Source: an uncultured Tropicimonas sp.
Lineage (GTDB): Bacteria; Pseudomonadota; Alphaproteobacteria; Rhodobacterales; Rhodobacteraceae
Direction: 5' to 3'
Length of the DNA: 64,000 nt
NCBI GenBank assembly: GCA_947495685.1
Contig: CANLZY010000028.1
Span: 1-64,000, forward strand
The notes beneath the pieces are model-generated. The model worked only from the letters and a program-made list of their open reading frames with translations, was not told the DNA's origin and did no database searches. Shown here in pieces: positions 9,228-41,791 of the stretch. The position numbers and the translations under genes are program-made. Within the stretch, counting starts at the first letter, position 1. Every line of letters begins with the position of its first letter.

Positions 9228-9275
9228 TGGAGGCGAGTACCGGAATCGAACCGGTGTACACGGATTTGCAATCCG
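9228..9275 (-). repeat. att site 1: tRNA-Cys 3' fragment (48 bp)
   Basis: Identical over 48 bases to 41718-41765, the 3' part (anticodon stem to CCA) of the intact tRNA-Cys. The 5' half of a tRNA is absent, so this is an attachment-site remnant, marking the outer end of the tandem islands. Confidence 0.9.
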
Positions 9276-27055: not shown

Positions 27056-27385
27056 CGGGTTTCCCCTGTGAATATGGATGCATACACCGCTACGCTCATC
27101 AAACCACAAGGGTTTCGGCATTTGCCGCAAGAGGCATGGGCCTGGTGCGATGCTGTTGCTGCCCCAACCAGCCCACCAATCGGCCGAGGAAGTTATCCGA
27201 AATCGGCCCGAAACACTGCCGTTCGAAACACCCGCGAATCGGGCGCTTCCCACCCCAAATGGCGTCGCCCTGAACGATCCCAAATGAACCCCATCTGGGA
27301 CCGTTTTGTAAACCAGCCTGTAAACTGCGCCTGATGGCGTCCCGAATATCGGGCGCTGAAGCGCAGAATATCCAAGAAAATAAGG
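27056..27385. other. Gene-free stretch with integrase-arm-like DNA
   Basis: No coding signal. TGTAAAC occurs at 27307-27313 and 27319-27325. The last about 50 bp before att site 2 (ATCGGGCGCTGAAG and following) closely resemble the DNA before att site 3, so this is the integrase-side end of an element whose integrase has gone. Confidence 0.6.
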
Positions 27386-27433
27386 TGGAGGCGAGTACCG
27401 GAATCGAACCGGTGTAGACGGATTTGCAATCCG
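27386..27433 (-). repeat. att site 2: tRNA-Cys 3' fragment between the islands
   Basis: A 48-bp copy of the tRNA-Cys 3' segment with one mismatch to the copies at 9228 and 41718. The 5' half of the tRNA is missing. It separates the two islands. Confidence 0.9.
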
Positions 27434-27589
27434 CCTTCATCCACTGATTTCATTGGAAAAAAATGTAACCGATTCCCGCTCGCTCGCTGTCTGTTACCTG
27501 TTCGCCCCTTCATCGGAGTAAACCGCCCATCCAGTACAATTCCCTTTGGCGCTGCCGGCGTTTCCTCTCGCTGAGGCGATAACGGCATA

Positions 27590-28423: not shown

Positions 28424-29740
28424 TCAATCTCCCTCGCGATCCGGCTTCGATCGGCCGGTCGAAGCCCCCCAGCTGCCTGTCCTGGTCTCTGCATAACTTT
28501 CTCGGCCAACGTCCTTCCCGGCCCGGTTGAGCGCCTTGTCGGCTGTTTCGCGCATGGCCGTGACAACGGACCGCAAGGGTTTGGGCAGGTGTTGTTCGGC
28601 GAGCCTGATGCTTTCCAGGGCTTTCCGAAGGCCGGCGAAGGCGCCTGCGAAGACCTGCTCGAGCTTCTCCCGCTCCTGCCTTCGGGCGTCTCGTCGCATC
28701 TCCGTGTAGGCCGTGTGGAAGATGTGCAGGGTGCGCTTCGCCGCCTTTCCGGCCACGCTCTCCGGCGGCTGCACGGCTTCGCTCGTACGCAGGTCGTATT
28801 CGGTGTCGGAATCTCCGAGATCGAGGTCACCCTGCGCCACCGCCTCGACCACCGACATCACGGCATCGGCGTGCGCCTCGCGATCGCCGAGCGCGGCCTC
28901 TCGCCGCTCGAGTTCGCCGGCCTTGGTGGCATTTTTCTCTGACGCCTTCACACGCGCCATGTCCTGCTCCTTGCGCCAGGTGCTGCACCGCTTGTGCTGA
29001 ACCTTGGGCTCCGGTGTCTCGCCGACGAGGACGGCCTGCCGCCAGGCTTCCTTCCGACGCTCCCCGCGCACCAACCCGACACTCGAGAACCACGCACCGA
29101 CGTTGGTCTGCGCCATCTCGTAGTCGCGGATCATGGGATGTACCGATGGCTGCAGCATTCTGCGTTCGCCGGTAGTCTTTCCCTTGTGTATGACCGGAAC
29201 CACCGCGCGCGGCATTATGACGGCATGGATGTGGTACGCCGTTTCATCGAGATCAGCGCGGGCGTGGATCACGTCGGCACCGAAATGAAACTTGAGCCAG
29301 GAAATGGCGCAGGCCTGGAATTCATCGACACGCTGGTTGACCGGATCGCCAAGGAAGGCGTCGATATCGCCGTCGAACCACTCCCGGTTGGCTGTGAGGA
29401 TGACCTCCCGCATCGGCCCGTGTTTCGAGGGCCGCCACGGGTCACGCGGTCCCTCGAGAATGCGGGCCTGCAACTCCTTCTTGCGGCGGCGCCTGCGCAA
29501 CCCGTCGAGTTCGCTTTCGAAATTCGCGACCTTCATCTCGTCGATCTCGTCGAGAGCTCTGTTCACCCAACCCACTTCGCCTAGCAGCGGGCGGTTGAGG
29601 TGGCTTCTGGCCGGGTCGACATGGGAAAGTTCGCCACCCTTCCGGAGCCGGTGTGCTTCGTAGCCCGGAAGTTGCTCGGGCCGAAGGTCCTCGAACCGAC
29701 ACACGATTGGGTAGGCTGGTTCGAACGATCCGCCTGACAT
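28424..29740 (-). CDS. MobV-family relaxase (Pre/Mob)
   Basis: 438 aa. N-terminal relaxase domain: motif I region with EAHRLRKGGELSHVDPARS, then HLNRPLLGE; a HVWFD-like middle (LTANREWFDGDIDAFLGDP); and motif III DLDETAYHIHAVIMP, with the paired His that bind metal. The second half is a charged coiled coil (KNATKAGELERREAALGDRE) as in other members. These enzymes nick oriT and start conjugal transfer with a helper plasmid. No coupling protein or mating-pair genes are present. ATG with GGAG upstream; a candidate oriT repeat lies directly before the gene. Confidence 0.88.
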   Translation of the reverse strand: MSGGSFEPAYPIVCRFEDLRPEQLPGYEAHRLRKGGELSHVDPARSHLNRPLLGEVGWVNRALDEIDEMKVANFESELDGLRRRRRKKELQARILEGPRDPWRPSKHGPMREVILTANREWFDGDIDAFLGDPVNQRVDEFQACAISWLKFHFGADVIHARADLDETAYHIHAVIMPRAVVPVIHKGKTTGERRMLQPSVHPMIRDYEMAQTNVGAWFSSVGLVRGERRKEAWRQAVLVGETPEPKVQHKRCSTWRKEQDMARVKASEKNATKAGELERREAALGDREAHADAVMSVVEAVAQGDLDLGDSDTEYDLRTSEAVQPPESVAGKAAKRTLHIFHTAYTEMRRDARRQEREKLEQVFAGAFAGLRKALESIRLAEQHLPKPLRSVVTAMRETADKALNRAGKDVGRESYAETRTGSWGASTGRSKPDREGD

Positions 29741-30343: not shown

Positions 30344-30688
30344 CTAAGAAAGAATCTCATCCAAGGCGTCAACGCGCCCGGCTCTCGAAGCTCTGCCCGC
30401 TCGATTTGCTCTCGAAGCCGGCGTCGCAGGGCGAGCTGGGATCGTCCGAACGGCGCGCCGAGCTGGAATCGCCATGCCAGTGCGGCGTAAAATGTAGTTC
30501 TCGTCGACTAGTTCACCCCAAAAACTACCGTCGCGCCTCCACGCTTTCCCGTCCTCGGTCACCCACCCCAAATAATCAGAATGCCGATCGAAAATCCTTC
30601 CGCTACTGATAAACGCACAGTATTTTCCAGACCAAGTATACAGTGGTGTCATTACAAAACCCCTTGCGTAGTAATACTGCTCATTCAA
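30344..30688 (-). CDS. 4-fold beta flower-type protein, third gene of the SIR2-HerA operon
   Basis: 114 aa. TTG start at 30688 overlapping the HerA stop by 8 bases with AAAGG upstream; an ATG 12 codons later is an alternative. The core has four short aromatic beta repeats ending in paired strands: LYTWSGKYCAFISSGRIFD, HSDYLGWVTEDGKAWRRDG, FWGELVDENYILRR. This fits the 4-fold beta flower family as I remember it, including the Pro/Ala/Arg repeat tail (PARPATPASRANRAGRASRA). Function unknown. The overlap suggests that it is translated with HerA; it may be a sensor, inhibitor or adaptor of the system, or a hitch-hiker. Confidence 0.7.
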   Translation of the reverse strand: MNEQYYYARGFVMTPLYTWSGKYCAFISSGRIFDRHSDYLGWVTEDGKAWRRDGSFWGELVDENYILRRTGMAIPARRAVRTIPARPATPASRANRAGRASRAGRVDALDEILS

Positions 30689-32426
30689 CTACCTTTTGGT
30701 TTCGCCAAGCCCTCAAAACAGCGGCAACGTCCAAGTCGCTAGGTTCGTCGCTCCACAGCCTTACAAACGAAGCATCATTGCTGTTTGGCGTTGGGTTGGG
30801 TCGGTCGACCTTAATTCGCGTCGGCATCATCATTGAATCTCCAATCAAGATCGCTTCGCCGCGCCTCAAAGATGAGAACATTGACGTAATCCCCCGCACG
30901 GAGTCTGGCAGCAGATTTCGCACGTAGGCTTGATCGTCGGGGTTGGATATCCTGAGACACAAGAAGCTACCGCACTGCGACAAAATGGTGGAGGACATTT
31001 CACGTGGCCGCTGGCTAATCACTGTTAGGCTAATCCCGTACTTCCGGCCTTCCTTCGCAATCCTTTCTGCGGATTCTCGAGGTGCTTGATCAGCGCTGGA
31101 ATCACTCAGATAGATATGAGCTTCGTCGGCGAAGATCGCGATTGGGAAGCGCTCGCCTTTCACACGGCTATGCCAATAGGAGAAATCGAAAAGGCATCTA
31201 AGAGTTAACGAAATCAACGCCCCTCTGACGTCAAAGGGGACTGGGCTGAGGTCAAGAACGACAATTTTCTTTCGGTTGGAAGTTTTCTCACCTAGTATTC
31301 TTCGGAATAAATCATCCATGGACCCGGAGGTATTGTAGGTCTTCGGTTTAAAGATCAGATCGTAGCGTCGATCGTTCAGACGCGATTCCAAACGCATCAA
31401 CAACCTCGTGAACTGGCCGTGCAATGGACCTTTAATCGGCTTCTTTGACGAACCCATCACCATCTGAGTGTCTAGTTTCCGGAAATTATCAATTATCTCA
31501 TTAAGATCGAAGTAAACCGGGGTGTCGATAGTGATCTTCTCCAACCCAAGCGCAGCGTTCTCCGGATTGCTCTCTTTGGCTGTTTGAAGAAGCTCCTTGA
31601 ATTTTGCGTTTTGGTTAGGAGCGCTCGATTCAGCTCTATCAATCATAAGCCCCAACAGTTCTTCGGCGTTCATCAACCAATATGGCATTTCAATGTCGGT
31701 TGCTGAAATGACTTCTGCGTCGCCATCAAAGGCCTGAGAATACTCACCGTGTAGATCCAACAGCAAAACTGTAGATTGCGGAAAAGCCGCAATTTTTTGC
31801 AGGATGGATGCAACCGTCCATGATTTTCCGCCACCCGTTTGCCCTAGTATGGCGGCATGGCGTCCTAGGAACGCATCCAGGTTCATCTTGGCCTCTTGGT
31901 CGGGAAGTAGCGACAGCTGTCCCAAGGAGAAATCACCCTCAGCGAAGCTCGTATAGACTTGGTTGATCGTTTTGGGAAGAACTGCAAAAACCGGTGCGTT
32001 TACAGTTGGCAGGATATTCGTGCCGCGTTCGAAACTTCCATCCGCACCTAATGTCCCGACTGGGATCGTCACAAGTTGCCGTGTGACTTGATCAATCAAC
32101 AAATCTCCGTCAAGGGCGGCAGCTTTTACTTCCGATGCACCGACTGATGCTTCGCGCATCCGTGTCTCTGTCACTAAGCAAAGCAGGCTACCGTTAGGCA
32201 AAGACAGTTCAACAAACGTGCCAGGTTGACCAATTAAAACGTTCTCTGGACCGTCTGGTGTCGAAACATCAACAGCCATTTCTTCAGGCACGCCAATGTT
32301 GTTTTCGCCATCAAACTCCGAAAGTGAAGCTATGATTTGATCGCCCCTGACCTCAATTACTTTTCCGATTTGGTGCTTCACGACTTGATCCTTCAGAATA
32401 GTTTGGCGAACTCGCCAAATTTCCAT
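30681..32426 (-). CDS. herA: HerA-like ATPase of a SIR2-HerA defence system
   Basis: 581 aa hexameric FtsK/HerA-type ATPase. HAS-barrel region in the first about 150 residues; Walker A GQTGGGKS at 195-202; the strand LLLLDLHGEYS at about 221-230; Walker B IFADEAH at 431-437; then the conserved segment VISQRPREMSSTILSQC (469-485) and RISNPDDQAYV. In known systems HerA assembles with a SIR2 NADase and the complex acts after phage infection. It starts inside the SIR2 gene (34-base overlap), so the two are translationally coupled. A+T-rich compared with the flanks. Confidence 0.9.
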   Translation of the reverse strand: MEIWRVRQTILKDQVVKHQIGKVIEVRGDQIIASLSEFDGENNIGVPEEMAVDVSTPDGPENVLIGQPGTFVELSLPNGSLLCLVTETRMREASVGASEVKAAALDGDLLIDQVTRQLVTIPVGTLGADGSFERGTNILPTVNAPVFAVLPKTINQVYTSFAEGDFSLGQLSLLPDQEAKMNLDAFLGRHAAILGQTGGGKSWTVASILQKIAAFPQSTVLLLDLHGEYSQAFDGDAEVISATDIEMPYWLMNAEELLGLMIDRAESSAPNQNAKFKELLQTAKESNPENAALGLEKITIDTPVYFDLNEIIDNFRKLDTQMVMGSSKKPIKGPLHGQFTRLLMRLESRLNDRRYDLIFKPKTYNTSGSMDDLFRRILGEKTSNRKKIVVLDLSPVPFDVRGALISLTLRCLFDFSYWHSRVKGERFPIAIFADEAHIYLSDSSADQAPRESAERIAKEGRKYGISLTVISQRPREMSSTILSQCGSFLCLRISNPDDQAYVRNLLPDSVRGITSMFSSLRRGEAILIGDSMMMPTRIKVDRPNPTPNSNDASFVRLWSDEPSDLDVAAVLRAWRNQKVVE

Positions 32427-33421
32427 GTGTCATTGGACATCTCAGTCTCGCGTCCGCCATTTACTGTTTTATCTTTGCAGAAGTGCCAAACGTTCGGGCG
32501 CGAGCGCGAGGCGCTAAGCGTAGCTGGCTCATCTTGGCAAAAATTGAACAAGGAAATCGCGCCAGAGTCGATATTGGGAGTGACGAGTGTTTCGTTGATG
32601 TGGCTATCACCAAAACTAAAACCCGAAGAAATTAGATGTTTGCACTTATCTCCCAGAACTGAGCTCGACAGGCGAAAGAGGCGGTCATACGGACTAGAAA
32701 GCGTCTCGAGCACTTTTGTTCGTCTTGGAAGAACCATGCATCGAGCCTCTGCCTCGTTGATCGCACTTGGCGCTGCTTCGAAAACTCGTTCGCCCTTGCG
32801 AAACCAAGAAACAGATCCGTGAAGTTTGACTAAGCGAACCGACAGACCACCCTCTTGCGAAAAACGATTCCCAGTGACCGTTCCGGAAACCAATGAGAAT
32901 TCTCGTTCGGAAAAGCACCGGGTCGTTGCCCCAATGAATCCGTTCACCATCTTCAACCCGACTTCGGCGCAAGCCTCCTCGAATAGGAGGTCGTAGTTGG
33001 TAGTAAACACCCATACATCTGTAGCACGATCGAAAGCTCGGGCCTTTATCCGCTCAAAGAACTCAACCTGATTTGATATGTCAGGGTTCTCCACATCCAA
33101 TATTGCAGCACGAACGAGCTCACGAATTCTTTCTTTCAGCACCCTAAACCGCTCAAGCTGGCTGTTTGTATGGTGCTCAATAACCATATCTGAGATATCT
33201 TCAATATTTGGGTTGCTTGCGGCATCGTCGTAGGACTTGCCAAATGCGTCAAGCACTTCATCCAACGAAGCACGCTCGCTGGATTGCAATGCACTGACAA
33301 CTTCTTTTGTCAACCCGGCGACTAACGGGTATCCGGAATCGAATGAAGTTCCGGCTCCAAAGAGAAAGCCCAAGTTATCTATGCTCGTTCGTGCCTTTGG
33401 GACAAATTCTTCAATCGGCAA
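32393..33421 (-). CDS. SIR2-like NAD hydrolase of a SIR2-HerA defence system
   Basis: 342 aa. Only a TTG at 33421 can serve as start, because an in-frame TGA lies two codons upstream; GGGG is the likely ribosome binding site. SIR2 motifs in order: FLFGAGTSFDSGYP (GAG at 22-24), FTTNYD with Asn 142 and Asp 144, KLHGS with catalytic His 201, and GFSFGDSHIN. SIR2 domains in defence deplete NAD+ and stop growth of infected cells (abortive infection). First gene of the three-gene operon. The single-domain length fits the SIR2-HerA type rather than Thoeris ThsA or DSR proteins. Confidence 0.9.
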   Translation of the reverse strand: MPIEEFVPKARTSIDNLGFLFGAGTSFDSGYPLVAGLTKEVVSALQSSERASLDEVLDAFGKSYDDAASNPNIEDISDMVIEHHTNSQLERFRVLKERIRELVRAAILDVENPDISNQVEFFERIKARAFDRATDVWVFTTNYDLLFEEACAEVGLKMVNGFIGATTRCFSEREFSLVSGTVTGNRFSQEGGLSVRLVKLHGSVSWFRKGERVFEAAPSAINEAEARCMVLPRRTKVLETLSSPYDRLFRLSSSVLGDKCKHLISSGFSFGDSHINETLVTPNIDSGAISLFNFCQDEPATLSASRSRPNVWHFCKDKTVNGGRETEMSNDTWKFGEFAKLF

Positions 33422-35067: not shown

Positions 35068-35453
35068 TGTCGGAGATGTCGCCCAGAAGAGGGATCATGG
35101 CAGCGAAACCCGGATTGTTCAAAACCGATGTCGAGGCAACGGCAGGGGCCATTCTGCGTGTGGCCGACTTTCTGTCAGAGGAGCGAGAGGCCTTGCGAAA
35201 CCTCCTGGAACTCTTTGGGGAGTTCGAGGCAATTGATGCGATCGCCGATCTCGGAGAGCTGTGCGACGAGGATTGCCCGGACCTGGCGCGCATCACGGCC
35301 GCACTCGGCGTTGTTTGCGCAGCGTTCGAACAGCTGTCATTCAGCCTGATCGGGACAGTTGCCTGGTATGGTGAGGGACCACGAGACCTGCACGCCGCCA
35401 TCCGGTGGTATGGCGCGAAAACGGAGGATCTCATCAAGCGCTTCCAGACCTGA
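35067..35453 (+). CDS. Acidic helical protein of unknown function (paralogue 1)
   Basis: 128 aa. ATG overlaps the upstream TGA by one base; AGGAGG precedes it. Mostly helical and acidic (VADFLSEEREALRNLLELFG, FEAIDAIADLGELCDEDCPD). It is clearly paralogous to the product at 39526-39894: shared PGLFKTDVEATA / PGLFETEFEATA, EFEAIDAIADL / ELEAVDLIADL, GDLH and IRWYGAKTEDLIKRF / IGWYRATVDVLRKRF. Its place after a PemK-like gene would fit an antitoxin, but this is untested. Confidence 0.65.
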   Translation: MSEMSPRRGIMAAKPGLFKTDVEATAGAILRVADFLSEEREALRNLLELFGEFEAIDAIADLGELCDEDCPDLARITAALGVVCAAFEQLSFSLIGTVAWYGEGPRDLHAAIRWYGAKTEDLIKRFQT

Positions 35454-36052
35454 CCACCCGGCGGCGCTTTCGGGCGCCGTCCCTTGAAGGGCAGAACGCC
35501 CCTCCGTCGGGCCTGGATCTCCCGACGAACGGCGCGCCGGCGAACAAACCCTCCGCTTCTGCTGCTCAGATGCCGGCGCGCCCACCCGACCCTTGATCCG
35601 CATAGTCCAGCACGCGAGAGCGGTCAGATGACAACGACGATTACCCGAAAAGCGCTCCGGGCGGTGATTGGCGGCAGCCCGCGCATTCATTCCGTTGGGC
35701 CATTCGTGCTACTTCGCAGATGCAGCATCACCCCTCAAACTGGAAGCTGCCATTCGTGGTCGGCGCGGCGAAGGACCGAGAAGAGCCCTTGTTGACCGAT
35801 GCTGCACGCTGCTCGAACGGGTAGTATGCCGACCCTACGGACCTTCGCTGCGAACGCAAAATTCAACCATACCCTGCCGCGGAACCGGGGAAGACGGGCA
35901 GTTTGCGGACTCTCGGTGCGAGTGCGAGGTTCCACATGTCTGAGAAGTAAGCGGGCATTCCTTGTCGGGTCTTCCTTGTGCTCCAATCGAAGCAGTTTTT
36001 CTTCGAGCCGTATCTTCCATGCAAAATCACGACATGCTAAACGACTCGTATA
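35454..36052. other. No supported gene
   Basis: Decayed sequence up to the retron RNA. The promoter of the retron must lie at the right end of this stretch; TATAG at 36048-36052 is a possible -10 part, without a convincing -35. Confidence 0.45.
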
Positions 36053-36182
36053 GCTTGCGGGTAGATTTTATCGTCGTGCTGTTCATGACGTTTGCACCCA
36101 TTGTTAGGTGTGATGCTCTCTTCGAGTTCCCTTTAGTTTTCCTCATGTAAACCCTTGGTTTGCCTTAGGAGTACCCGCAAGC
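36053..36182 (+). ncRNA. Retron ncRNA (msr-msd), predicted
   Basis: An 11-bp inverted pair frames the element: a1 at 36053-36063 and a2 at 36172-36182. A G follows a1 directly (36064), where the branching guanosine is expected. Inside are hairpin 1 (36072-36078 with 36084-36090, 5-base loop), hairpin 2 (36094-36098 with 36107-36111, 8-base loop) and a longer hairpin (36147-36153 with 36157-36163, 3-base loop, extended by 36140-36143 with 36167-36170) that fits msd. It ends 20 bp before the reverse transcriptase start. The order a1, msr hairpins, msd hairpin, a2, RT gene is the standard retron layout. Exact ends are not known. Confidence 0.78.
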
Positions 36183-36202
36183 GCAACTACCTGGAGGTAG
36201 GT

Positions 36203-37930
36203 TTGAGCAAACTATCATCTCTCAAATCCATCAGCACGCGCGGCGAACTCGCTGACCTTCTAAATTACCCACGATCAGCGCTCGCCTACGCCGTATACAA
36301 GGTTCCTAGCGAGCGGAAATACTCAGAGTTTAAAATTTCGAAAAAAAGTGGAGGCGAAAGGGTAATTCACGCCCCTTGTCCGGAATTGAAGGGCCTGCAG
36401 AAACGTCTTTCAAATTATCTCTATGATTGTCACCGAGAAATTCTCCCGCCGCTTGATTTTCCGCGCCGCTCGTATTCACATGGCTTCCAGAAAGACCGAG
36501 GTCTTTCGATCTTCTCAAATGCATGGAAGCATAAGAATAAGCGGTTTGTTCTCAACGTTGATTTGAAAGACTATTTTCCAAGCTTCAATTTTGGACGTGT
36601 CCGAGGGTACTTCCTTAAAAACCGTTCCTTTGAGCTAAATCAGGACATTGCTACTCTGATCGCGCAAATCGTTTGTTACGATAACTCGCTTCCTCAAGGC
36701 GCTCCGACCTCTCCAATCGTGTCAGAATTGATAGCAAGTATTCTGGATCAACGTCTGGGACGATTGGCGAGAACGCATCACTGCACCTACTCCAGATACG
36801 CTGACGACATCACATTCTCAACGAACCAAGCAAGCTTTCCTGAGCCAATCGCGGATTTTTCTTCAGAGACCGATGGTGCGTGGAAGGCTGGTAAAGGTCT
36901 TGTCAACATCGTCGCGCGATCAGGTTTCGAGATAAACACGAACAAGACACGTATGCAGCTTTCAGCGTCGCGCCAAAGTGCAACAGGTCTAATAGTCAAC
37001 CGCAAAGTCAACGTATCAAAGCAGTACTACGATGCAGTTCGTGCAATGAGCAACTCGTTGTTCAAGACAGGTGTCTGTCATCATCCGGACACCAAGAAGC
37101 GCGCGAGCCTTTCCGTCCTAAAGGGAAAGCTGGAGTTTACCCTTGCAGCCAAAATCTACCCGAGGGAGTTGGAGAGTTTCAGCGATCTCGAGACAGCTTC
37201 GAAGGTTCCGGGCGGAACGCCTGTCCCTTCTCACTACAAGCTCTACCGCAGTTTTTTGGCATACGAAAAATTTCACACAAATGCCCGCCCTCTCATCGTC
37301 TGCGAAGGCAAAACAGACAATACATATATTCGGTGTGCGATTGCCTCTCTGAGTGCCAAGTTCCCACTCTTGAAGCCGACAACTAATGCTGATGGGTCTG
37401 TTTGTCAGGTGCTAAGTTTTTTCAAGCATAGCGAAAAGCACGCAAAACTCTTGTCAATTTCCGGAGGAACGGGTGAGCTACACAAGTTCGTCGGGAAGTA
37501 TGGTTCTCTTCTAAATAAGTTTCACAGCGGCGGCCAACTGCAGCCTGTAATTGTGATCGTAGACAACGACGCTGCTGCTAAACCGATGTGGTCGGTAATA
37601 AAGGAGCAGATGGGTTCTAAAGGTGCGGTGGACGGCTCTGCTAGTTATTACCATGTAAAGCGCAACCTGTTTGTCGTTCCAATTCCGATCCCGACTGGGA
37701 AGTCCGCTAGTATCGAAGACCTTTTTGATAAAGCAACGCTTGCGACTGTGAACAGAGGAAAAAAGTTCAACCCGCAGCTAAAATCCCATCAGACCGCCAC
37801 CCAATATGGTAAGGAGATCTTTGCAAAATGGGTGATCGAGGCGAACGCCACGAGTATTGAATTTTCCGGATTCGAGCCACTTCTAGGACGGTTGGAAGAG
37901 GTGCTCAAAGTCACGCTGCCGGGTTCTTGA
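36203..37930 (+). CDS. Retron reverse transcriptase fused to a TOPRIM domain (Ec67-like)
   Basis: 575 aa. TTG start at 36203 with GGAGG 5 bases upstream; the earlier TTG at 36155 lies inside the predicted ncRNA. RT motifs: retron region X as NAWKH (106-110), VDLKDYFPS (119-127), QGAPTSP (165-171), catalytic YADD (199-202) and region Y as SATGLIVN (259-266, usually VTG). The second half (from about 360) is a TOPRIM nuclease: VCEGKTD (366-372) with the first acidic residue and VIVIVDNDA (449-457) with the DxD. Fusion of effector and RT matches retron Ec67. The RT makes msDNA from the upstream RNA; the TOPRIM part is the presumed effector in phage defence. A+T-rich. Confidence 0.92.
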   Translation: MSKLSSLKSISTRGELADLLNYPRSALAYAVYKVPSERKYSEFKISKKSGGERVIHAPCPELKGLQKRLSNYLYDCHREILPPLDFPRRSYSHGFQKDRGLSIFSNAWKHKNKRFVLNVDLKDYFPSFNFGRVRGYFLKNRSFELNQDIATLIAQIVCYDNSLPQGAPTSPIVSELIASILDQRLGRLARTHHCTYSRYADDITFSTNQASFPEPIADFSSETDGAWKAGKGLVNIVARSGFEINTNKTRMQLSASRQSATGLIVNRKVNVSKQYYDAVRAMSNSLFKTGVCHHPDTKKRASLSVLKGKLEFTLAAKIYPRELESFSDLETASKVPGGTPVPSHYKLYRSFLAYEKFHTNARPLIVCEGKTDNTYIRCAIASLSAKFPLLKPTTNADGSVCQVLSFFKHSEKHAKLLSISGGTGELHKFVGKYGSLLNKFHSGGQLQPVIVIVDNDAAAKPMWSVIKEQMGSKGAVDGSASYYHVKRNLFVVPIPIPTGKSASIEDLFDKATLATVNRGKKFNPQLKSHQTATQYGKEIFAKWVIEANATSIEFSGFEPLLGRLEEVLKVTLPGS

Positions 37931-38156: not shown

Positions 38157-38960
38157 GTGAACGAGATAGCTAGAACCCCGATTGTCGCGCCGTTTCGGAA
38201 AAAATTGGATATGATCAATGATCAACTTTGCTTTGGCGCGTTTTATGCGTTTGAAGCATCGCTGCAACTTCACGACCAATCCGTCGCTTCGTTCACAACG
38301 GATGCCTTTCCACATAACCCGTATGCAAGCCGAATCCATAGACGTGTCAAAGAATTGGCGGAGTTCGAGGAGATCTACCTGAATCAATCTGCGCTCATGG
38401 CTATGCAAGCGGGCGTCGAAACAGTTCAAGCATACTTCTGCGCCGTGAGGAAGCATACCGCGGCCCTGCATAAAATTGATATGAGTTCGGGAGAATCCGC
38501 CGACGACGAAGCACTTCATGAACAAATTATATCAATAAACTGTCGCACCACAACGGAACTGTTTGAGACGGCCGTATACCTACGGAGACGAAGAAACCAT
38601 CTCATCCACCAGTTGTCAGAACCGAGTTCCGAAATGAAAAAGTTTTGGAAGGCCGGAGGCGCTCAGCGCCTTGACGAGTTTTGGCTCAAACGTCCCGCTG
38701 AACTATTTGGTTTTGATTTTTCAAACCGAGCGCTGGATGCATTTCGGATTGAGGATGGCTTTGCAATTATGAATCTCTTACGGATATGCATGCTGGAGAT
38801 CGATAGAGATGTGGCCCAAAGCCTTCCTCGAGACGCCCTTCTGGAAGAAATTGAAAAGTCCGTGCTTTCTGAGAAACCGCATCTGAAGGGAGACAATAAT
38901 CGGCTGAGGAATAAAGTGCTTAGCAGGCTACAGCGAGATTACGGGATCATTTTATCATGA
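38157..38960 (+). CDS. HEPN-motif protein of unknown function
   Basis: 267 aa, soluble, mostly helical. GTG start with AAGGA upstream. Around residues 140-150 the sequence AVYLRRRRNHLIHQLSEP contains RNHLIH, which fits the HEPN ribonuclease signature R-x4-H with a polar residue after Arg. The long helices before it (FEEIYLNQSALMAMQAGVE, TVQAYFCAVRKHTAAL) also fit. HEPN proteins in defence islands are often RNases that act when a partner senses phage. No MNT antitoxin gene is adjacent. It lies 226 bp after the retron on the same strand; a link to it is possible but not shown. Confidence 0.6.
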   Translation: MNEIARTPIVAPFRKKLDMINDQLCFGAFYAFEASLQLHDQSVASFTTDAFPHNPYASRIHRRVKELAEFEEIYLNQSALMAMQAGVETVQAYFCAVRKHTAALHKIDMSSGESADDEALHEQIISINCRTTTELFETAVYLRRRRNHLIHQLSEPSSEMKKFWKAGGAQRLDEFWLKRPAELFGFDFSNRALDAFRIEDGFAIMNLLRICMLEIDRDVAQSLPRDALLEEIEKSVLSEKPHLKGDNNRLRNKVLSRLQRDYGIILS

Positions 38961-39525
38961 TGGGTGAAGGGTCGCTTCAGGGAAGCCGCATCGCGGCATA
39001 AATCATCATGACCGACGGCAGCTTTGGGCCGGTCACGACGGTCTGGAATCGTGCTGCACCCGCAAAGTGTTTTGCTCGGGCAACGTCCGCTCTGCGCAGT
39101 TAGCGGTTGCTCGTGGTGATCGATCGAAGGTCGGCAAGGTCCGCTGAACTGACCTTGGGCTTTCTCTTGCCGAACGTCCGGTCCTCTTCGAAAAAGACGG
39201 CTGATGGATGACGGTAGCCGGAAATGCTGCGCTGCCGAGGATGACCGCGATGTCGGCATTACCGTGGGTCGTTTCGCACTTCATTGAGACAGTTGAGGGC
39301 CACGCATGCGCTGGACCGCCCGGTTGATCCGGCTCCTCCTGCTGAGAGCCGGATCAACCAGCCGCCCGCAGAGCAAACTGAAGATCGGACAAGGGATCGA
39401 TCCTCCATCCGCGTCGGGCGCCCGGGTAAGCAGTTACTTCGGTTCGGTTCTACGCCGCCAGACCATTCCTGGCGGTGCTTGAAGACGCAGTGAAGAACCA
39501 TGGCTGTCGCCGTGGGCTGTCGTCG
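38961..39525. other. No supported gene
   Basis: Decayed sequence. One inverted repeat (GGATCAACC near 39351 against GGTTGATCC near 39323) is seen. It precedes paralogue 2, just as decayed sequence precedes the retron. Confidence 0.4.
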
Positions 39526-39894
39526 ATGAGAGAGATTATGGGTGTGAGACCCGGACTCTTTGAGACCGAATTCGAGGCAACGGCATTCGCGACCATGTGT
39601 GTCGCCGACTTCCTGCTGTGGGAGGGCGACACCCTTCGAATCCTCCTGGAGGTATTCAGTGAGCTCGAAGCGGTCGACTTGATCGCGGATCTCGTGGACC
39701 TGTGCCGAGAGGATTTTCCGAACGTGCGGGGCATCCGGCTTGCGCTCGACGTCGTTCTGGAAGCGCTGGAGCAGCTGTCACTCGGCGTCGTCGAGGACGT
39801 CATCGGGAGCGGCGAGGACGCCGGAGACCTGCATGATGTGATTGGGTGGTACCGCGCGACAGTCGACGTATTGCGCAAGCGCTTCGAGACCTGA
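39526..39894 (+). CDS. Acidic helical protein of unknown function (paralogue 2)
   Basis: 122 aa. ATG chosen by comparison with the paralogue at 35067. Same layout: VRPGLFETEFEATAFATMCV, then ELEAVDLIADLVDLCREDFP, DAGDLHDVIGWYRATVDVLR. Strongly acidic, no domain recognised. It lies 213 bp upstream of the accessory gene before the integrase. With its paralogue it brackets the retron and the HEPN-motif gene. Confidence 0.65.
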   Translation: MREIMGVRPGLFETEFEATAFATMCVADFLLWEGDTLRILLEVFSELEAVDLIADLVDLCREDFPNVRGIRLALDVVLEALEQLSLGVVEDVIGSGEDAGDLHDVIGWYRATVDVLRKRFET

Positions 39895-40107: not shown

Positions 40108-40437
40108 ATGACGACCGAGAGCAATCAAGCGAATGACTTCCAGGCGGCGCTCAATGCGGCCCGGGCTCAGGTCGTCTCGCAGGAATGCACCCTCGTTACG
40201 ACTGAAGAACTGGCGGCGATCGCGCGCTACGCAGGCGTGACAGACGCGTTCCGTCAATGGCTCAAGAAGATCGGTCTGGAACACCTTCCGGGGCGGCCCG
40301 GGATCTTCGACCTGAAGCACTTCCGTCTCTGTCTCGACCGCCTCCAGGGACTGGAGCCCACCCAAGGGTCGGCGGCCGAGGCGATTTCACTGACAGAGCA
40401 GAGGAGACTGCGCCGTGAGCAAGACAGCGCTGCCTAA
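40108..40437 (+). CDS. Small protein coupled to the integrase, possible excision factor
   Basis: 109 aa. ATG with GGAAGGG upstream. The middle contains a helical stretch LVTTEELAAIARYAGVTDAF followed by RQWLKKIGLEHLPGRPGIFD and LKHFRLCLDRLQGL, like a winged-helix or excisionase-type DNA-binding fold. It overlaps the integrase start by 23 bases, so they are co-translated. The role in excision or attachment-site binding is inferred. Confidence 0.6.
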   Translation: MTTESNQANDFQAALNAARAQVVSQECTLVTTEELAAIARYAGVTDAFRQWLKKIGLEHLPGRPGIFDLKHFRLCLDRLQGLEPTQGSAAEAISLTEQRRLRREQDSAA

Positions 40438-41536
40438 AGGCATCCATCGCGTCAAGAAGCCAAACGCCGCGGGTGTGGTCAGGTATCATTACGTCTGTCG
40501 AGGTGGGCCGAAGTTCTGGGATTCGAACTCGCAGGTCGTGGAAGGATCGCTGGCCTATCTCGCTGCCTATCGACAGGCGAACACGAGTGCGGCCGAAGCC
40601 GCGCGCACGCATCGCGCGAATGAAATGCTCACGCCCGATGCGATGGATGAGTACCGCCGCAGCATTCACTATCGAAAGCTCAACGCGCGGACGAAAGCTG
40701 ACTATGAGAAGTACATGACGAACTTCGAGGCCGAGTTCGCCGACGACCCGATCAAGCTGTTCGAGGAGGAGGAGTCCCTGGCCGAGATCATCGCCTGGCA
40801 GAACCAGTGGGCGCACTCGCCGCGCATGCACGACTACTCGACCCAGGTCATCCGCCGGTTCCTGAACCGGATGCGGCAATCCGGGGTGATCAAACGGCAC
40901 TTCTTCCGCGACATCGAGGCGGTCTACAGCGTCAACCGGGCCCACCTCTTCTGGAAGCCGGAAGAGATTGCAGCGGTCCTCGAGGTCGCGAGACCGGCGG
41001 AACGGCGGATCGTCGTCGCGATGTCCGAGGGTGGCCTGGCGCCCGCCGATGTCGGGCGGCTGAACAGGGGGCATATCGAGAAAACCCCGAAGGCACGGCG
41101 CCTTCTGCTCGACCGCGGGAAGACCGGTCAACCAACCGCCATCGCGGCCACGCCGGCGATCGAGGATCTCATCGACACCATGGATGATGACCAGTGGCTC
41201 ATCGTGCCGGCGCTGTCCGGCGGGCGCCTGACGCCCGAACGCGCCGCGCAGATCGTTCGCGACCTGATCGGTCGCGCGAATGCCGACGGCGTTGTCCGCG
41301 TTCGGCCCGAGCTTCGGCCCTACGACATGCGGGGCACCGCCGCGACGGCGCTGCTGCGCGCCGGGTGCGGGCTGAACGAGATCGCCGTGGCGATGGGGTG
41401 GAGCATCCGCCACGCATCGACAATGATCGAGCGCTACGCGCGGCTCATACCCGAAGTGACCGACGAGATTCTCGGGAAACTCGAACGCGCGAAGGCCTCG
41501 GCCAACGTCTTCGACGGCGACGACACGAACGGCTGA
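40415..41536 (+). CDS. int: Tyrosine recombinase / island integrase
   Basis: 373 aa integrase. N-terminal arm- and core-binding parts (HRVKKPNAAGVVRYHYVCRG; TKADYEKYMTNFEAEFADDP), then the catalytic domain: GGLAPADVGRL where the first Arg box is expected, RGKTGQPTAI with the beta-hairpin Lys, LRPYDMRGTAATALL with the second Arg, MGWSIRHASTMIERYARL with the Tyr nucleophile. The first Arg is not visible at its usual place and the H-x-x-R box begins with Tyr, so it is a divergent member. It lies beside the tRNA-Cys end and reads towards it, as usual for integrases that use a tRNA 3' end. Confidence 0.88.
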   Translation: MSKTALPKGIHRVKKPNAAGVVRYHYVCRGGPKFWDSNSQVVEGSLAYLAAYRQANTSAAEAARTHRANEMLTPDAMDEYRRSIHYRKLNARTKADYEKYMTNFEAEFADDPIKLFEEEESLAEIIAWQNQWAHSPRMHDYSTQVIRRFLNRMRQSGVIKRHFFRDIEAVYSVNRAHLFWKPEEIAAVLEVARPAERRIVVAMSEGGLAPADVGRLNRGHIEKTPKARRLLLDRGKTGQPTAIAATPAIEDLIDTMDDDQWLIVPALSGGRLTPERAAQIVRDLIGRANADGVVRVRPELRPYDMRGTAATALLRAGCGLNEIAVAMGWSIRHASTMIERYARLIPEVTDEILGKLERAKASANVFDGDDTNG

Positions 41537-41657: not shown

Positions 41658-41717
41658 TGGCCACTTCAGGGCCCCGATAATCGGGCGCTGAAGTCCGGAA
41701 TGTCCAGGAAAAGAAGG

Positions 41718-41791
41718 TGGAGGCGAGTACCGGAATCGAACCGGTGTACACGGATTTGCAATCCGCTGCGTAACCACTCCGCCAACTCGCC
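41718..41791 (-). tRNA. tRNA-Cys (GCA)
   Basis: 74 nt, minus strand. Acceptor stem GGCGAGT with ACTCGCC, discriminator U and encoded CCA (41718-41720), anticodon loop with GCA, T arm GGTTCGATTCC. The 3' 48 nt (41718-41765) double as att site 3. The only complete one of three related copies in the window, so it is the functional gene and was restored at each integration. Confidence 0.95.

Follow-up and report, generated by a model that had tools for sequence, protein, structure and literature searches.

Retron Eco2 (Ec67) of E. coli, a type I-C system in which a reverse transcriptase (RT) is fused to a TOPRIM domain, is the closest known system to the locus described here and has been solved structurally (PDB 9lm3 and 9i2f). 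The family is already known, being named in NCBIfam and in PADLOC, whose web server also searches msr-msd covariance models (PMC9252829). According to the published account of Eco2 (PMC12405507), the branching guanosine of its RNA is rG15, the DNA is 67 nt long, with dT1 as its first nucleotide and dC67, on rG52, as its last, and the metal-binding residues are E374, D378, D460, D462, S513 and E515. The same account reports that the isolated TOPRIM domain has RNase activity, and that the involvement of the phage nuclease DenB was deduced from escaper mutants because the toxicity of DenB prevented a direct assay.

A retron cassette was found at positions 36053-37930 of a 64-kb stretch of DNA (the window), which lies on contig 28 of a 5.64-Mb genome. 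As the initial annotation had proposed, an RT-TOPRIM gene and a readable msr-msd RNA occupy this interval, and curated family models, the sequence match to Eco2 and a covariance model of the RNA all agree on it. Taken together, the data make it very probable that the locus is a complete-looking type I-C (Ec67/Eco2-family) retron, to which a role in anti-phage defence can be attributed by analogy with Eco2. The features of the cassette are listed in Table 1. The retron is not named in the titles and abstracts covered by our literature queries, which did not include the name Nioella; a Sulfitobacter paper that mentions retrons (PMC10221251) was covered at the level of title and abstract.

Table 1. 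Features of the retron cassette, with positions in the window and the basis of each assignment.
Feature	Position	Strand	Basis
Retron msr-msd noncoding RNA, a1 to a2, 130 nt	36053-36182	+	Covariance-model match 36051-36184; fold; Nioella similarity
a1 inverted repeat, 11 nt	36053-36063	+	11/11 bases paired with a2
Predicted branching guanosine, 2'-5' priming site	36064	+	G in 37/37 distinct model matches; aligns with Eco2 rG15
msr stem-loop, 7 bp (RSL of Eco2)	36072-36090	+	Covariation
Second hairpin, 7 bp, unproven, across predicted msDNA 3' end	36092-36113	+	Single-sequence fold
Predicted msd template, 68 nt	36103-36170	+	Eco2 alignment and published Eco2 ends
a2 inverted repeat, GAG just before	36172-36182	+	Fold; complete GAG in 36/37 distinct model matches
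RT-TOPRIM fusion protein, 575 aa	36203-37930	+	NF038237, PDLC02966, Eco2 fold match; TTG start

The single gene of the cassette, which we read as starting at the TTG at 36203 with a GGAGG in front, encodes the RT-TOPRIM fusion that characterizes type I-C, and it is recognized as such by curated models. The NCBIfam family NF038237 (retron Ec67 family RNA-directed DNA polymerase/endonuclease) matched with a score of 664 bits (cut-off 450), and PADLOC RT-Toprim_I-C (PDLC02966) matched residues 1-569 with an E-value of 2.5e-206. In a sequence search, the solved Eco2 chains were the best solved relatives (E 6e-117), with the fusion aligned over residues 2-565. The protein is 38% identical to Eco2. 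All five motifs singled out in the initial annotation were found in the 575-aa frame, where they read NAWKH, YADD, ATGLIVN, EGKTD and DNDA. In terms of the RT, NAWKH (106-110) falls in region X, YADD occupies residues 199-202 and aligns with residues 199-202 of Eco2, and the ATG of region Y (260-262) has an A at the position where V is nearly invariant. Pfam recognizes the RT part alone, this domain being its sole match in the protein, and the TOPRIM domain was therefore examined separately. By alignment, E368, D372, D454, D456, S503 and E505 correspond to the six metal-binding residues of Eco2 in the order given above, all of them kept. The catalytic lysine that the Eco2 paper names K562 could not be placed by this mapping, residue 562 of the S10 protein being D in our numbering.

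A predicted structure of the protein (AlphaFold, alignment of 35 proteins) had a mean pLDDT of 88.9. When the model was compared with the PDB, Eco2 cryo-EM chains took ranks 1-5, with a best E-value of 4.6e-53, TM-scores of 0.76-0.77 and rmsd values of 5.3-5.6, and the overall Eco2 fold thus appears to be present in the modelled protein. The identity of the TOPRIM domain is settled by the PADLOC model, the sequence match to Eco2, the alignment of the residues, NF038237 and the predicted fold, which bears out the comparison with Ec67 made from the sequence at the outset. At two residues of Eco2 the alignment shows a difference: N284 takes the place of H281, a residue reported to stack on the msr loop and variable among relatives, and R332 of the trimer loop aligns to a gap, in a loop where the alignment is uncertain and at a residue that also varies among relatives.

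The RNA upstream of the gene follows the Eco2 order of a1, G, ATTT, one msr stem-loop, msd, GAG and a2, while the msd sequence itself differs from that of Eco2. The 11-bp a1/a2 pair with a G immediately 3' of a1, as originally described, proved exact (Table 1). The fold of 36040-36202 had a z-score of -3.46, and one of 200 shuffles was equally or more stable. None of the retron families of Rfam matched at threshold in the window, where three tRNA matches were obtained, and the two Rfam matches near the locus were at chance level. These results speak neither for nor against a retron RNA, and we therefore built our own covariance model.

To assemble relatives, 12 of the 18 plasmid records that covered at least 80% of the protein were compared, together with one clone from a phage collection and E. 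coli S10. A search for inverted repeats was made at 26 loci, namely the window copy and 25 relatives, and in 22 of them the RT was preceded by an 11-14 bp inverted repeat whose a1 arm was followed immediately by G and whose a2 arm was preceded immediately by GAG. A complete RT frame was lacking in this search at three loci (L038, L060 and L061), of which L060 and L061 were later matched by the covariance model. At L062, where genome G685 has an RT-TOPRIM-like frame of 739 aa, no acceptable a1/a2 was found and the model also gave no match; a divergent RNA at this locus is possible. The genes at L047 and L053 are interrupted. After removal of the identical RNAs of L053 and L057, 20 RNAs were aligned, the second-ranked repeat being taken for L046.

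Both helices of this alignment show compensatory change. In the a1/a2 helix, 13 of 14 pairs were changed on both sides; in the msr stem, the figure was 6 of 7, with 97.1% of cells paired. For the two helices together, 19 of 21 pairs were changed on both sides, and of 391 cells 99.0% were paired. None of 500 shuffles reached the covariation score, and sliding by 1-3 columns reduced pairing to 29-43%. The complete pairing (100%) of the a1/a2 helix is partly by construction because a1 and a2 were picked for pairing, so the msr stem, which like the G and the GAG played no part in the selection, is the fairer evidence. The initial annotation had asked whether the a1/a2 pairing is conserved in homologues, and it is: the pairing covaries, as does the msr hairpin.

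The covariance search that had also been proposed was performed with a model (R1) built from 18 relatives, the window copy and its closest relative, from Nioella, being left out. Model R1 matched 36051-36184 with 61.3 bits (E 8.5e-15), and this was the single match in the window up to an E-value of 10. It was also the single match in the 5.64-Mb genome (E 7.4e-13), in which scoring covered 150 of the 368 first-look candidates. At 33 other loci, matches with E-values of at most 1 were obtained for the Nioella locus (L002), L060 and L061, and the other 30, including L038 and L062, were missed. No relative emerged from a first scan of viral contigs, in which the query was the protein alone. A second scan used an alignment as the query, and the best 80 of 177 relatives were kept. 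Among these best 80 of 177, grouped by match length, model R1 was found upstream of the gene in 48 of 50 loci whose protein match extended past residue 420, and in none of the 30 whose match ended at or before residue 379. At L102 and L104, which were missed, the protein match is preceded by 15 and 0 bases, respectively. The 48 viral-contig RNAs comprise 37 distinct ones, in which 18 of 20 pairs were changed on both sides and the G and GAG are kept as given in Table 1; this alignment leans towards model R1 because it was fitted to it.

These findings bear on whether the inverted repeat and hairpins could be a chance or terminator-like structure rather than an msr-msd RNA. A terminator scan of the + strand did give one site, at 36044-36062, which overlaps a1; shuffled sequences gave more sites, 3.5 on average. 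Set against the blind model match, the covariation and the RNA upstream of 48 of 50 viral-contig relatives (from the best 80 of 177), a chance or terminator-like origin is hardly credible. The standard msr-msd layout upstream of the RT, as first read from the letters, is upheld by the covariation and the blind search. Of the two msr-like hairpins that had been noted, the first (36072-36090) is supported by covariation, whereas the second (36092-36113) comes from a single-sequence fold and spans the predicted end of the msDNA.

In terms of size, the RNA had been noted as only about 130 nt long, with a short msd hairpin that would give a small msDNA. The length of 130 nt from a1 to a2 is correct but is no peculiarity, because Eco2 of E. 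coli S10 is of the same size (131 nt); between the arms there are 108 nt in the window copy and 105 nt in Eco2. The spans of model R1 in the 37 distinct relatives were 124-145 nt with a median of 132, compared with 134 for the match in the window. Since the 67-nt DNA of Eco2 ends as dC67 on rG52, its dT1 lies on the A of GAG. The equivalent points in the window copy are A36170 and G36103, which gives 68 nt, or 69 nt if the last G, which is not copied in Eco2, is counted. The predicted msDNA of about 68 nt is thus close to the 67 nt of Eco2, and a small msDNA is the norm of the family. By analogy with Eco2, the product would begin with T and end with C, and its start would be TCCTAAGG.

The second hairpin has 7 bp, compared with 3 bp at the same place in the Eco2 fold, and is identical in Nioella. 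The point at which reverse transcription is predicted to stop lies in its loop, and it is conceivable that in the lineage of this retron and its Nioella relative the hairpin serves as a lineage-specific terminator or as a second protein-binding element, giving an assembly unlike the Eco2 trimer. The apparent lack of the trimer-loop arginine of Eco2 also bears on such an assembly. We regard this proposal as doubtful.

The closest relative is an RT-TOPRIM retron of Nioella sediminis, with 85% protein identity, 81% DNA identity and the same noncoding RNA, in which the substitutions leave the predicted fold unchanged. When 13.7 kb of Nioella DNA was compared, similarity (81%) was confined to 36050-37911, so the RNA and the gene form one shared unit in this pair. 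The similarity starts 3 bases upstream of a1, beyond which the two sequences are dissimilar. The Nioella neighbourhood is different as well and contains a tRNA-Ser and an ORF that, from its translation, we read as integrase-like. The comparison thus presents the RNA and gene as a closed cassette in two different neighbourhoods. Retrons in plasmid records of Sinorhizobium, Rhizobium, Caballeronia, Proteus and Enterococcus, named as retron Ec67 family wherever the gene is listed, have the same a1/G and GAG/a2 layout, with 36-44% protein identity and RNAs of 121-147 nt. The Caballeronia plasmid retron (42.7% identity) has an interrupted frame. A DNA search of plasmids gave no match.

In terms of distribution, the type I-C profile at an E-value of 1e-110 was matched in 6 of the 385 genomes searched in the class, one of them the retron's own, and in 6 of 398 genomes of a phylum sample; at 1e-60 it was matched in 13 of 398 genomes of a second phylum sample, again with its own genome included. 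A protein search of 194 genomes gave matches in 23, also counting its own, and besides that genome only G160 had a match of near full length. The two phylum samples share some of their genomes.

At the level of sequence, the identity of the locus and the architecture of its RNA are known and the mapped catalytic residues are in place, and a mode of action can be proposed in which expression, msDNA synthesis, assembly, trigger, RNase activity and defence are all modelled on Eco2. One transcript starting at about 36053 would be both the source of the msr-msd RNA and the message for the RT-TOPRIM protein. With the 2'-OH of G36064, next to the a1/a2 duplex, as its priming site, the RT would start copying the template at A36170 and stop at about G36103, and the resulting branched msDNA of about 68 nt would stay with the protein. 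As in Eco2, the assembly of msDNA and protein may keep the TOPRIM domain inactive. Damage to the msDNA by a phage factor (for Eco2, a DenB-like nuclease) would then free the TOPRIM, which would cut RNA and stop the infection. We consider an RNase activity with a DenB-like trigger to be the probable form of this last step.

A type I-C retron may also act on a different target, for example on tRNAs as AriB of PARIS does or on DNA as Gabija does, or may respond to a trigger that is not DenB-like. This alternative departs from the preferred explanation in the last step only. TOPRIM effectors vary in substrate, AriB being one that cuts tRNA (PMC12409363), and the Eco2 paper gives dsDNA as the target of Gabija and tRNA as that of PARIS (PMC12405507); moreover, the protein is just 38% identical to Eco2. 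However, the homology is near full length, the predicted fold is that of Eco2, and the isolated TOPRIM of Eco2 is an RNase (PMC12405507), so a different target or trigger is possible but distinctly less likely than RNA cleavage under a DenB-like trigger. The retron opens no new question and is a convincing but ordinary member of a solved family. What it adds is a divergent, intact-looking Eco2 homologue whose msr-msd boundary can be predicted to the base, and such a homologue could be used for asking which parts of the Eco2 model (the trimer loop, the trigger and the RNase) are general.

The neighbours of Eco2 in S10 are phage genes (portal, terminase), whereas the window copy is located between two copies of a tRNA-Cys 3' end, at 27368-27434 and 41700-41766, and a further copy is present at 9228-9275. 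These are direct copies, that at 27368-27434 agreeing over 94% of 67 bases and that at 9228-9275 over 48 of 48 bases, and the arrangement suggests that two integrative elements, of about 18 and 14 kb, lie next to each other. The tRNA-Cys is adjoined by a tyrosine recombinase gene at 40415-41536, which Pfam scores at 30.1 bits against a cut-off of 27.1. The GC content of the retron is 0.484, compared with 0.57-0.62 in the surrounding stretches, and this difference suggests a foreign origin. It would also suit a retron that is silent or decaying and travels as cargo of an island, as would the result of a sigma-70 scan in front of the locus, which found no promoter-like site on the + strand and is weak and uninformative. 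The open frame is of full length, however, with its mapped catalytic residues kept, all 11 a1/a2 bases are paired, and the substitutions relative to Nioella preserve the predicted fold, which makes a silent or decaying retron very unlikely.

Several other genes and repeats were observed nearby. The gene directly downstream (38157-38960, 267 aa) was considered as a retron component and set aside, as it lies outside the region shared with Nioella and was found in one of 100 genomes, its own; none of four libraries gave a family match for it, and the 99 other genomes searched yielded no relative. On the minus strand, PADLOC reported a SIR2-HerA-like defence pair, formed by an overlapping HerA-type ATPase (30681-32426) and SIR2 gene (32393-33421). 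A MobV-like relaxase at 28424-29740, also on the minus strand and, like the defence pair, between the two tRNA-Cys copies that enclose the retron, scored 51 bits, which is under the curated cut-off of 100, and hints that the element is mobilisable. An odd tRNA call at 27386-27484 overlaps a copy of the tRNA-Cys 3' end. Two stretches on the same strand, 35077-35453 and 39518-39894, are 68% alike in DNA and flank the retron and the next gene. Finally, three of eight genus mates (G002, G004 and G007) have the first 48-49 bases of the tRNA-Cys end in an additional copy, and this tRNA-Cys may be a habitual integration site.
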